From an uncultured beta proteobacterium (lineage in GTDB: Bacteria; Pseudomonadota; Gammaproteobacteria; Burkholderiales; Burkholderiaceae_C): DNA of 58,828 nucleotides. The translations under genes and the position numbers were made by a program. Positions 37,340-41,557 of this stretch are shown here, in pieces. The stretch lies in contig CAIMBE010000162.1 in assembly GCA_903839085.1 (NCBI GenBank), forward strand, positions 1 to 58,828. Reading direction: 5' to 3'. Below the pieces are notes generated by a model, which saw only the letters and a program-made list of their open reading frames with translations, ran no database searches and had not been told where the DNA came from. Every line of letters begins with the position of its first letter. Position 1 is the first letter of the stretch.

Positions 37340-38725
37340 ATGCACATTCATGTTCTGGGCATTTGCGGTACTTTCATGGGCGGTCTCGCGGCGCTGGCGC
37401 GCGAGGCGGGTCATAAAGTGACTGGTTGCGACGCCGGCGTCTATCCACCCATGAGCGACCAGTTGCGCGCGCTCGGCATCGAGCTGATTGAGGGCTTCGC
37501 TGCCGACCAGTTGGCGCTGGCGCCCGATGTCTATGTCGTTGGCAATGTCGTGAGTCGCGTGCGCCTGAGCGACGGCAGCCCCAAGTTTCCCCTGATGGAG
37601 GCAATTCTGGACCGCGGACTGCCCTACACCAGCGGCCCGCAATGGCTCGCCGAGCATGTCTTGCAGGGCCGGCATGTGATCGCCGTGGCGGGCACCCATG
37701 GCAAGACCACGACCACTGCGATGATCGCCTGGATACTCGAATGCGCGGGTCTGCATCCCGGTTTTCTGATCGGCGGCGTGCCCCTGAATTTTGGTGTTTC
37801 CGCCAAATTGGGGGGCGGCAGGGTCTTTGTCATCGAGGCTGATGAGTACGACACGGCCTTTTTTGACAAGCGCAGCAAGTTTGTTCATTACCGACCGCGC
37901 ACGGCGGTCCTCAACAACCTTGAATTTGACCATGCAGACATCTTCGAAAACCTCTCGGCCATCGAGCGCCAGTTTCACCATCTGGTGCGCACGGTGCCGG
38001 CAAGCGGGCGGGTTCTGGTCAACGGTCTCGAGGAAAGCCTGGCGCGCGTTCTGCATGTGGGCTGCTGGAGCGAGGTGCGCAGTTTTGGCGCCACCGTGAG
38101 CGACTTTACCGCCAGCGGCGAGCCCGATTCGTTTGACGTGTTCTTTCTGGGCCAGCTGGCGGGTCATGTGAAGTGGGCACTGACTGGCGTGCACAATCAA
38201 TTGAACGCGCTGGCGGCCATCGCGGCCTGCGAGCACATTGGTGTTTCACCGGCCGATGCGGCCAGCGCCCTGGGGGGCTTTTCTAACGTAAAACGTCGCA
38301 TGGAAGTGAGCGGTTTGGTCAAGCAGTTGGATGGCAATATCACGGTCTATGATGACTTTGCCCATCATCCGACAGCGATTCGAACCACCATCGACGGCCT
38401 GCGACGGAAAGTGCTGCAGGGCGAACGCATCCTCGCCGTATTCGAGCCGCGTTCCAACACCATGAAGCTGGGCGCCATGAAATCCCAACTTCCCTGGAGT
38501 CTGGAGAATGCGGATCTGGCTTTTTGTCACGCCGGCGGCCTGGGCTGGGATGCCCGGAAGGCATTGGCCAGCATGGGACCCAAGATAGCGGTGGCAGACC
38601 ACATTGACGAACTGGTGGCGCTGGTGCTGGCACAGGCGCGTCCGGGCGACCACATCCTTTGCATGAGCAATGGCGGCTTCGGCGGCATTCATCAAAAGCT
38701 GCTGCAGGCGCTGCGGATGAATTAG
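37340..38725 (+). CDS. mpl: UDP-N-acetylmuramate:L-alanyl-gamma-D-glutamyl-meso-diaminopimelate ligase
   Basis: MHIHVLGICGTFMGGLAALAREAGHKVTGCDAGVYPPMS, AGTHGKTTTTAMIAWILE. Confidence 0.95.
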   Translation: MHIHVLGICGTFMGGLAALAREAGHKVTGCDAGVYPPMSDQLRALGIELIEGFAADQLALAPDVYVVGNVVSRVRLSDGSPKFPLMEAILDRGLPYTSGPQWLAEHVLQGRHVIAVAGTHGKTTTTAMIAWILECAGLHPGFLIGGVPLNFGVSAKLGGGRVFVIEADEYDTAFFDKRSKFVHYRPRTAVLNNLEFDHADIFENLSAIERQFHHLVRTVPASGRVLVNGLEESLARVLHVGCWSEVRSFGATVSDFTASGEPDSFDVFFLGQLAGHVKWALTGVHNQLNALAAIAACEHIGVSPADAASALGGFSNVKRRMEVSGLVKQLDGNITVYDDFAHHPTAIRTTIDGLRRKVLQGERILAVFEPRSNTMKLGAMKSQLPWSLENADLAFCHAGGLGWDARKALASMGPKIAVADHIDELVALVLAQARPGDHILCMSNGGFGGIHQKLLQALRMN

Positions 38726-39861
38726 CGCGTCCGGCGCGACGTGATCGCCCGGGACAGCAGTTCTAGCGCGGCGCACGACTCATCCCAACCGAGGCAGGCA
38801 TCGGTGATGCTCCTGCCGTATTCGAGCTTTTGCGCATCGTCTTTGCCGGGGCTGAACTTCTGCGCACCGGCGTGCAGATGGCTTTCCACCATGACGCCGA
38901 AGACCTGGGTCGAGCCGGCTGCCACCTGCGCCGCAATGTCGCGCACCACATCGAGCTGCTTTTCGTGGCGCTTGCTGCTGTTGGCATGGCTGCAGTCGAC
39001 CATCAGCGTGGCAGGGAGCCTGGCCGCCAGGAGCTCTTTGCAGGCGGCGCTCACGCTGGCGGCATCGTAGTTGGGTACTTTGCCGCCGCGCAGAATGACG
39101 TGGCAATCCGGGTTGCCGCGGGTTTGCACGACCGCCACCTGTCCGTTCTTGTGCACCGACAGGAAGTGGTGGCGGCCCGCGGCGGCCTGGATCGCGTCGG
39201 TGGCGATCCTGATGTTGCCGTCGGTCCCGTTCTTGAAGCCGATCGGCGCCGACAGGCCGGAGGCCAGTTCCCGGTGCACCTGACTCTCGGTCGTGCGCGC
39301 GCCGATCGCGCCCCACGAGATCAGGTCGCCAAGGTATTGCGGAGAAATAACGTCCAGAAATTCGCTGCCGGCGGGCAGGCCCAGGCGGTTGATTTCAATC
39401 AGCAGTTGGCGCGCCATGCGCAGCCCCTCGTCAATCCGGAAGCTCTCGTCGAGGTAGGGGTCGTTGATCAGTCCCTTCCAGCCGACCGTGGTGCGCGGCT
39501 TCTCGAAATAGACGCGCATCACAACTTCCAGGGTGTCAGCGTAGCGGTCACGCTGCTCACTTAGGCGGCGCGCATAGTCCAGCGCGGCCGCCGGGTCGTG
39601 GATCGAGCACGGACCTATCACGACCAGCAGACGGTCGTCCTTGCGGGCCATGATGTCGTTGATCCGCCGGCGCGTGAGGCTGATCAGGGACTCGACCGGT
39701 GTTCCCCGAATCGGGAAAAATCGTATCAAATGCTCGGGGGGAGGCAACACCGTGATGTCCTTGATGCGTTCGTCATCGGTCTGACCGGTGCGGTCATGGA
39801 GGTGGTCAATCGGATTGGCATACCAGCCAGCGGCTGCCGCCGACGCTGCTTTTGATTTCAT
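38722..39861 (-). CDS. aroG: 3-deoxy-7-phosphoheptulonate synthase, class I
   Basis: VVIGPCSIHDPAAALDYARRL, VMRVYFEKPRTTVGWKGLINDP, DCSHANSSKRHEKQ. Confidence 0.95.
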   Translation of the reverse strand: MKSKAASAAAAGWYANPIDHLHDRTGQTDDERIKDITVLPPPEHLIRFFPIRGTPVESLISLTRRRINDIMARKDDRLLVVIGPCSIHDPAAALDYARRLSEQRDRYADTLEVVMRVYFEKPRTTVGWKGLINDPYLDESFRIDEGLRMARQLLIEINRLGLPAGSEFLDVISPQYLGDLISWGAIGARTTESQVHRELASGLSAPIGFKNGTDGNIRIATDAIQAAAGRHHFLSVHKNGQVAVVQTRGNPDCHVILRGGKVPNYDAASVSAACKELLAARLPATLMVDCSHANSSKRHEKQLDVVRDIAAQVAAGSTQVFGVMVESHLHAGAQKFSPGKDDAQKLEYGRSITDACLGWDESCAALELLSRAITSRRTR

Positions 39862-39905: not shown

Positions 39906-39933
39906 AAAAAAACCGCCGGGGTGGCCGGCGGTT
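39906..39933 (-). terminator. Putative attenuator hairpin upstream of aroG
   Basis: On the minus strand AACCGCCGG-ccacc-CCGGCGGTT followed by a 7-T run; lies between the leader ORF and aroG. Confidence 0.87.
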
Positions 39934-39966
39934 ATTGGAAGATCAGGACGTTTTATTCAGGTACGT

Positions 39967-40035
39967 TCAGAACTCTCTACCGCCGCAGGCGCTTGAGAAC
40001 CAAAAATAGTCAAAGTAAAAACAGGCCGATGTCAT
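39967..40035 (-). CDS. Putative aromatic-residue-rich leader peptide MTSACFYFDYFWFSSACGGREF
   Basis: 22-codon ORF with the FYFDYFWF run upstream of an attenuator-type hairpin and aroG; not in the ORF track, read by hand. Confidence 0.75.
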   Translation of the reverse strand: MTSACFYFDYFWFSSACGGREF

Positions 40036-40084
40036 TGAGTTAAATGTAGCACATGGAAGTGGCAAGCCCGGCGCATACCTGGCA

Positions 40085-41557
40085 TCAGGCGGTGCCCCCA
40101 ACCGTCAGCCCGTCGATGCGCAAGGTCGGCTGTCCGACCCCCACCGGCACGCTCTGACCTTCCTTGCCGCATGTTCCTACGCCGCTGTCGAGCTTCATAT
40201 CATTGCCGATCATGCTGATGCGGGTCAGCGCATCAGGACCATTGCCGACCAGCGTGGCGCCCTTGACCGGATAGCGGATCTTGCCGTTCTCGACCCAATA
40301 CGCTTCGCTGGCAGAGAACACAAACTTGCCCGACGTAATGTCGACCTGTCCCCCACCGAAGTTGATGGCATACAGACCCTTGCGGATGCTGGCAATGACT
40401 TCATTGGGTTCCTTGTCACCGCCCAGCATGTAGGTGTTCGTCATGCGTGGCATCGGCACCGACGCATAGCTTTCGCGGCGGCCGTTGCCGGTGGCTGCCA
40501 CGCCCATCAGGCGCGCGTTCATGGCATCGTGCATGTAGCCCTTCAGAATGCCATCCTCGATCAGGACGTTGCGCTGGCTGAGATTGCCCTCGTCATCGAC
40601 ATTGAGCGAGCCACGCCGATCGGCCAAGGTGCCATCATCGAGCACGGTGACGCCCTTGGCGGCCACACGCTGACCGATGCGGCCGCTAAAAGCGCTCGAC
40701 CCCTTGCGGTTGAAGTCGCCCTCCAGACCATGGCCGATGGCCTCATGCAACAAAATTCCGGGCCAGCCGGGGCCCAGGACCACCGTCATTTCACCCGCCG
40801 GTGCGGCGCGCGCCTCCAGATTGGTCAGAGCCGCGTGCACCGCCTGATCGACATACTCTGCGATGCGCTGCTGGTCGAAATAGGCCAGTCCAAAACGCCC
40901 GCCGCCGCCAGCCGAACCGATCTCGCGGCGGGTCTTGCCGCCGATCACCTGCTCGGCGATGACGGTGACCGACAGTCGTACCAGCGGTCGCACATCGGCC
41001 GCCAGGGTGCCGTCGGCCCGCGCCACCAGCACCACGTCATATTCACTGGCCAGACCGGCCATGACCTGCGCCACGCGTGGATCCTTGGCGCGCGCCAGCC
41101 GCTCGACGGTGCCAAGCAAATCGACCTTTGCGGCACTGTCCAGAGTGGCAATCGGATCGAGCCCCGGGTAAAGCGAGCGCCCGTTCGCCATCTTCCTTGC
41201 CACTGAACGCACGCGGGGCGACTGCGCTGCGCTCGAGATCGTGCGAACGGTGCGGGCGGCGTCAAGCAGGGATGCCACCGAAATGTCGTCCGAATAGGCG
41301 AACGCGGTCTTCTCGCCGCTGACGGCGCGCACGCCGACGCCCTGGTCGATGCTGAACGAGCCGGTCTTGACAATGCCTTCCTCCAGGCTCCATCCCTCCG
41401 CGCGTGTGTACTGAAAATACAGATCTGCCTCGTCCACCTTGTGCGCCCTGATTTCGTTGAGGGCCTGCGTCAAGTGGGATTCGTTCAGCCCGAACGGATC
41501 AAGCAGCAGTGACTTGGCGATAGCCAGGCGATCGATGGTGGGTTCACGAGGGGTCAT
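40085..41557 (-). CDS. tldD: Metalloprotease TldD
   Basis: VVLGPGWPGILLHEAIGHGLEGDFNRKGSSAFSGRIG, GTCGKEGQSVPVGVGQPTLRIDGLTVGG. Confidence 0.96.
   Translation of the reverse strand: MTPREPTIDRLAIAKSLLLDPFGLNESHLTQALNEIRAHKVDEADLYFQYTRAEGWSLEEGIVKTGSFSIDQGVGVRAVSGEKTAFAYSDDISVASLLDAARTVRTISSAAQSPRVRSVARKMANGRSLYPGLDPIATLDSAAKVDLLGTVERLARAKDPRVAQVMAGLASEYDVVLVARADGTLAADVRPLVRLSVTVIAEQVIGGKTRREIGSAGGGGRFGLAYFDQQRIAEYVDQAVHAALTNLEARAAPAGEMTVVLGPGWPGILLHEAIGHGLEGDFNRKGSSAFSGRIGQRVAAKGVTVLDDGTLADRRGSLNVDDEGNLSQRNVLIEDGILKGYMHDAMNARLMGVAATGNGRRESYASVPMPRMTNTYMLGGDKEPNEVIASIRKGLYAINFGGGQVDITSGKFVFSASEAYWVENGKIRYPVKGATLVGNGPDALTRISMIGNDMKLDSGVGTCGKEGQSVPVGVGQPTLRIDGLTVGGTA

Follow-up and report, generated by a model that had tools for sequence, protein, structure and literature searches.

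A probable ribosome-mediated attenuator with a Phe/Tyr/Trp leader peptide upstream of the DAHP synthase gene aroG in Burkholderiales

The window, by which we mean the whole 58,828-nt stretch of contig CAIMBE010000162.1 from an uncultured beta proteobacterium, carries on its minus strand a gene for a type I DAHP synthase of 379 aa (aroG, 38722-39861, ATG at 39861; Pfam DAHP_synth_1, 2.6e-91). Its product has the E. coli Phe-sensitive DAHP synthase among its best solved-structure matches. The upstream gene, tldD (Pfam PmbA_TldD match), ends at 40085, leaving an intergenic region of 223 nt. Within this region, the minus strand contains a short leader ORF, MTSACFYFDYFWFSSACGGREF (39967-40035), which reads from an ATG at 40035 to a stop at 39969-39967 as the first-pass annotation had described. 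The same holds for its block FYFDYFWF (39997-40020), in which seven of eight codons encode Phe, Tyr or Trp and which represents the putative sensor. The terminator proposed downstream also stands: AACCGCCGG (39933-39925) pairs with CCGGCGGTT (39919-39911) over 9 bp, enclosing 5 unpaired nt, and a T run follows. Only the spacings had to be corrected, from about 34 to 33 nt between the leader stop and the stem and from about 45 to 49 nt between the terminator and aroG.

The leader can be described as four segments, all on the minus strand and assigned from sequence and covariation. Segment 1, UUCUC (39995-39999), overlaps the last Phe codon of the block and the following Ser codon. Segment 2, CGGCGGUAGAGAG (39973-39985), combines CGGCGGU, which would pair with segment 3 as an antiterminator, with GAGAG (39977-39973), located just 3′ of GGCGG and complementary to segment 1. 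Segment 3, AACCGCCGG (39925-39933), is the 5′ arm of the terminator, and segment 4, CCGGCGGUU, together with the U run, completes it (39906-39919). The complementarity on which this scheme depends had been recognised before and agrees with the sequence: CGGCGGT at 39985-39979 in the leader is a perfect complement of ACCGCCG in the terminator 5′ arm. The first-pass annotation had found no convincing 1:2 pairing, but one exists: UUCUC at 39999-39995 can pair with GAGAG at 39977-39973, and compensatory changes are seen between them. A possible small apical stem, ACGU...ACGU, lies between segments 2 and 3 (39948-39966; moderate covariation), and comparison of relatives predicts an extended -10 promoter element, TGCTACATT (40043-40051), 7 nt 5′ of the leader ATG.

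To place the element in a wider context, we collected DAHP synthase relatives from named genomes and from 151 genomes of the window's own family. A covariance model built from 62 sequences (R1) recognised the window element with an E value of 2.6e-21 and found no second credible site in the window's genome. It was positive in 148 of the 151 Comamonadaceae genomes, with one site each, and in 57 of 200 Burkholderiales genomes spread over many families. From the Burkholderiales matches, 29 loci were retrieved, and each of them has an ORF for an aromatic leader. An automatic motif test recognised a DAHP synthase downstream in 28; in the single failure, L141, the ORF call suffers from a short artefact of the start region. 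One genome with a strong R1 match has a weak second one (G280:C26:31592-31705, E 0.0084), which could be an element preceding another gene or chance. The layout upstream of the relatives' DAHP synthase genes is a common one: an ORF that includes an aromatic block and has GGCGG close to its 3′ end, then the stop codon, 16-48 nt, and a terminator of the form ACCGCC...GGCGGT plus a T run.

A wider model (R2), applied to 276 genomes sampled from the class, gave only five matches outside the window's family. Three come from one family, and a fourth, from a different family, is clearly an instance of the element; together with the leader of Xanthomonas bonasiae (L080), the three one-family matches suggest that the element extends to the Xanthomonadaceae. 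The fifth, a weak match (L147, E 9.6e-4), is likely false and was rejected, having neither an aromatic leader nor a downstream DAHP synthase. No recognisable aromatic leader was present at the DAHP synthase loci of Polynucleobacter, Cupriavidus, Thauera and Rhodocyclus (L031, L032, L034, L035, L037, L053, L064), which may reflect loss or another mode of control. The locus L101 carries the leader.

Could the hairpin simply be the intrinsic terminator of tldD, and the aromatic ORF a chance frame? At 150 nt downstream of tldD, the terminator could end tldD transcripts as well, and 80 of 110 loci contain a tldD motif. However, the element accompanies aroG also where no tldD motif was found (e.g. 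L080, L077, L058), and covariation links both the ORF and segment 2 to the terminator. In addition, when the 223-nt intergenic region was dinucleotide-shuffled 2000 times, no start-to-stop ORF with seven aromatics in nine codons arose. Given this result and the recurrence in 148 of 151 family genomes, the window leader is not a chance ORF. On the sequence comparison, conservation and covariation in practice refute a mere tldD terminator, to which we assign a very small probability.

The leader ORF itself shows a strong compositional bias. Across 90 leaders, aromatic residues make up 31% of all residues, and F, Y and W are all present in 83%. The conserved aromatic codons vary synonymously among 62 sequences: alignment columns 43-45 encode Phe in 62/62 (TTT in 55, TTC in 7), a conserved Tyr position uses TAC in 36 and TAT in 17, and a conserved Ser uses four TCN codons. 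This pattern indicates that the leader ORF is under selection as coding sequence, for its aromatic codons. The peptides fall into lineage-specific types. Comamonadaceae have FYFxYFWFSSAxGGREF and FYFYFWFSVPGGREA, Rubrivivax and relatives have leader tails of the type SHRTAAGEA, Burkholderia and relatives have MSAKFYFYFFWHLxPLADREG, Oxalobacteraceae have FFTGYFYFSNSNPKAVE and Xanthomonas has FYFWYYGFPMPLAEEG. The peptide frame read over GGCGG varies with the lineage (GGRE, AAGE, LAEG, AVE) while the RNA core stays constant, so that GGCGG, being kept despite these frame shifts, is an RNA element and not a peptide one.

These variants also bear on the nature of the sensor. A TnaC-like arrest peptide, which would stall in response to a ligand such as a free aromatic amino acid instead of sensing tRNA charging, would present the same aromatic block and the same downstream switch, and the block order FYFxYFWF is indeed strongly conserved inside the Comamonadaceae. 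Between lineages, however, the block residues differ (FYFYFFWHL, FFTGYFYFS, FYFWYYGF), as does the frame of the residues that follow; composition is kept, not sequence. Moreover, a stall that frees segment 2 would turn aroG on, which suits starvation better than excess. We thus regard an arrest peptide as very improbable and retain a sensor of tRNA charging.

Support for the alternative helices comes from covariation. In a narrow Comamonadaceae alignment, covariation was weak because the arms hardly vary, and a wide alignment was needed. An earlier wide alignment (A3) included 12 opposite-strand terminator matches and gave way to A4, an alignment of 68 sequences whose underlying model lacks the 2:3 pairs. 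Since A4 is fitted to 1:2 and 3:4, the counts for these two helices lean towards the structure, whereas the count for 2:3 does not. With this reading, 93.9% of cells are paired in the 1:2 helix UCUC/GAGA, 92.6% in the 2:3 helix and 98.2% in the terminator helix 3:4. Double changes occur at all four core pairs of 1:2, with UCUC/GAGA, UUCC/GGAA, UCCC/GGGA and CUAC/GUAG among the variants seen. Double-change cells number 57 for 1:2 and 2:3 together, compared with 18.1 +/- 3.1 in shuffles (0/500) and 2-11 in slid controls; the terminator helix has 37, compared with 11.7 in shuffles. One locus (L104) illustrates the antiterminator pairing: segment 2 changes from GGCGG to GACGG and segment 3 from CCGCC to CCGUC, which compensates 2:3 and leaves 3:4 with only a G-U at that position. 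Native 2:3 duplexes are stronger (-16.22) than partner-swapped duplexes (-14.73) and than the best of 300 shuffles (-15.30), and native exceeds swapped overall as well as inside each of two groups. Support is weaker for the apical stem between segments 2 and 3, with 74.6% of cells paired and 17 double-change cells against 6.0 in shuffles (0/500). This stem, at 39948-39966 in the window (columns 83-112 of alignment A1), occurs in many Comamonadaceae and may bring segments 2 and 3 together.

Other folding approaches were less informative. On plain alignments, RNAalifold recovered little besides the terminator because loop lengths differ and 2:3 competes with 3:4; the named helices were scored on the model-based alignment in its place. 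The single-sequence fold of the window is not unusually stable (z -1.23), a result that we counted against the attenuator.

Covarying alternative helices alone would suit any attenuator, including one worked by a riboswitch, a T-box or an RNA-binding protein instead of a translating ribosome. We consider such a switch extremely improbable. Eight diverse loci gave no Rfam match at gathering score, T-box included, and the window search returned a single sub-threshold, chance-level match, to sroD. The ORF is coding and stop-free, with aromatic codons under selection, and segment 1 overlaps the sensor codons, leaving no space for an aptamer. The element is thus best read as operated by the ribosome that translates the leader. 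This interpretation had been put forward in the first-pass annotation and is supported here, as the aromatic ORF, the terminator and the complementarity between leader and terminator are kept and covary in relatives. The comparison suggested at that time, of aromatic codons and of covariation in 2:3 and 3:4 across relatives, came out positive for all of these features.

To determine where along the ORF a stalled ribosome would operate the switch, we placed a ribosome on every codon in turn, barred the 27 nt of its footprint from pairing and folded the transcript as it would be before segment 4 appears. In the window leader, stalls at the aromatic codons give a 2:3 pairing probability of 0.89-1.00, which falls to 0.22 and then to 0 at the second and third residues past the block. 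Over 90 sequences, the mean is 0.90 at aromatic codons and 0.82 at the last of them, followed by 0.46, 0.10, 0.00 and 0.00 at the next four codons. In 88 of the 90 sequences, GGCGG follows the last aromatic codon at a distance of 8-17 nt, mostly 9-12 nt. Stall probabilities and spacing therefore agree that the aromatic block ends where the ribosome starts to cover segment 2. In the folding check proposed earlier, the switch point thus coincides with the end of the block: in the model, a stall at the sensor codons would free segment 2 and passage beyond them would hide it.

Equilibrium folding adds constraints on timing. The full leader forms the terminator in nearly all states of seven sequences, the Burkholderia type being the exception; antitermination must thus be kinetic and be decided during transcription, as in other attenuators. 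In some relatives (L020, L022, L061), segment 2 stays accessible when the ribosome halts on the stop codon, so that shut-off there needs passage time or a re-formed 1:2. The ribosome-free partial transcript of the window favours 2:3 (0.95), which was also counted against the attenuator.

The first-pass annotation had pointed out that the leader ORF lacks a strong Shine-Dalgarno sequence. This is borne out more widely, with no SD-like match of at least 3 nt in 58 of 64 Comamonadaceae-type loci. Although a scan for consensus promoters in the window was empty and no -35 consensus match is present, comparison of relatives, through which alone the extended -10 was recognised, revealed that 59 of 64 Comamonadaceae-type loci have TGnTAnnnT (usually TGTGCTACATT) ending 6-8 nt 5′ of the leader ATG. 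Elsewhere in these upstream stretches, the motif matches once in 2496 positions. In 58 of the 64 loci, a pyrimidine directly precedes the ATG. Sigma-70 transcription usually starts 6-9 nt past the -10, which together with the 6-8 nt spacing places the predicted start at or next to the A of the ATG, in the window at or within 1 nt of it. The Comamonadaceae leader mRNA is thus probably leaderless, which would likely explain the missing Shine-Dalgarno.

The promoter differs in other lineages. Burkholderia- and Oxalobacteraceae-type loci lack TGnTAnnnT before the ATG in 25 of 26 cases and have TATAAA/TATAGT boxes about 30-40 nt upstream (L050-L082). The leaderless start is therefore lineage-dependent, and from these sequences the leader appears to be leadered in Burkholderia/Oxalobacteraceae and leaderless in Comamonadaceae. 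By analogy with these promoters, and given the lack of a -35 consensus in the window, the attenuator could function as proposed on a transcript that starts further upstream. The fixed spacing of the extended -10, the rarity of SD-like matches and the pyrimidine at -1 argue against this, and we hold an upstream start to be unlikely, if still worth keeping in mind. The leaderless start remains our preferred reading for the window.

Taken together, anatomy, conservation, coding character, three covarying helices and the in silico switch-point geometry make it very probable that the window element is a ribosome-mediated transcription attenuator of aroG that senses the charging of Phe-, Tyr- and Trp-tRNA. 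From this basis we infer the start site, the translation of the leader, the response to starvation and the kinetic choice between structures. In the proposed mechanism, transcription would start at the leader AUG, probably giving a leaderless mRNA, with a ribosome close behind the RNA polymerase. A shortage of any one of the three aminoacyl-tRNAs would stall the ribosome within the aromatic block and so open the 1:2 hairpin, freeing GGCGG of segment 2 for the emerging CCGCC of segment 3. With 2:3 paired, the terminator could not form and aroG would be transcribed. When all three aminoacyl-tRNAs are plentiful, the ribosome would cover segment 2, or leave so that 1:2 re-forms; segment 2 would be unavailable, 3:4 would pair and transcription would end.

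The pairing scheme is reminiscent of E. coli trpL, a Trp-only sensor in which 1:2, 2:3 and 3:4 pair alternatively and segment 1 lies over the sensor codons, as it does in the window. The two differ in the position of segment 2, which falls within the 3′ portion of the ORF in the window and after the ORF stop in trpL. The E. coli pheL and pheM leaders have a Shine-Dalgarno sequence, unlike the window leader. These leaders, of pheA and pheST, share with it a Phe codon run, a four-segment switch and an intrinsic terminator before the gene (PMC11802643). They differ in that they sense Phe only and control a terminal-branch gene or a tRNA synthetase, and Rfam has no match for the window type. A leaderless start has been measured for Sinorhizobium meliloti trpL/rnTrpL, where the mRNA of the leader ORF starts at the ATG (PMC7298713), matching what is predicted for the window; this alphaproteobacterial leader is a Trp-only sensor of trpE(G).

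A close precedent is aroR-aroF of Corynebacterium glutamicum. An aromatic (Phe-Tyr-Phe) leader peptide is described there upstream of the DAHP synthase gene, with stalling at aromatic codons under Phe limitation that raises aroF expression (Neshat et al. 2014, via PMC11802643; PMC4046766). Both systems thus place an aromatic leader before a DAHP synthase gene. Compared by description, aroR has one short FYF whereas leaders of the window family have 7-8 aromatics including Trp. C. glutamicum belongs to another phylum, and convergence is our default assumption. The mechanism is therefore already known from E. coli pheA/trp and from aroR-aroF, while the widespread leader family itself appears to be new and lies outside the named Rfam leader families. 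In the open-access literature we found no account of a leader before aroG in Burkholderiales or Xanthomonadales; older comparative genomics in subscription journals could hold one. Attenuation of a DAHP synthase gene, called notable in the first-pass annotation, accordingly has a described precedent; the contrast drawn there with TyrR/TrpR control in E. coli stands.

Three DAHP synthase isoenzymes are under TyrR and TrpR in E. coli. A regulon survey reports both regulators as conserved in gammaproteobacteria and absent in other proteobacterial classes (PMC5343134), and our search of 21 genomes did not find the TrpR family. With TyrR reported absent and TrpR not found, the control of betaproteobacterial DAHP synthase had, as far as we could find, been an open question, to which one conserved attenuator sensing Phe, Tyr and Trp together at the first step of their common pathway would be a simple answer. 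We hypothesise, with slightly better than even confidence, that a single, probably leaderless, three-amino-acid attenuator before the DAHP synthase gene is a main genetic control of entry into aromatic biosynthesis in Burkholderiales and Xanthomonadaceae-like bacteria, replacing enterobacterial TyrR/TrpR, and that lineages moved between leaderless and leadered starts. The family lies outside Rfam, the model is ready for annotating hundreds of genomes, and the element could be of use in engineering aromatic production in Burkholderiales.

Some DAHP synthases 66-69% identical to that of the window are found on contigs labelled Planctomycetota, Verrucomicrobiia and Gemmataceae (L046, L047, L049), which are likely mis-binned. 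In the stretches examined, the second DAHP synthase, pheA and trpE of the window's genome show no comparable leader. This second DAHP synthase (L002, G000:C84:24770-25774) is 56% identical to the first and lacks an aromatic leader ORF; it is possible that attenuated and non-attenuated isoenzymes divide labour.
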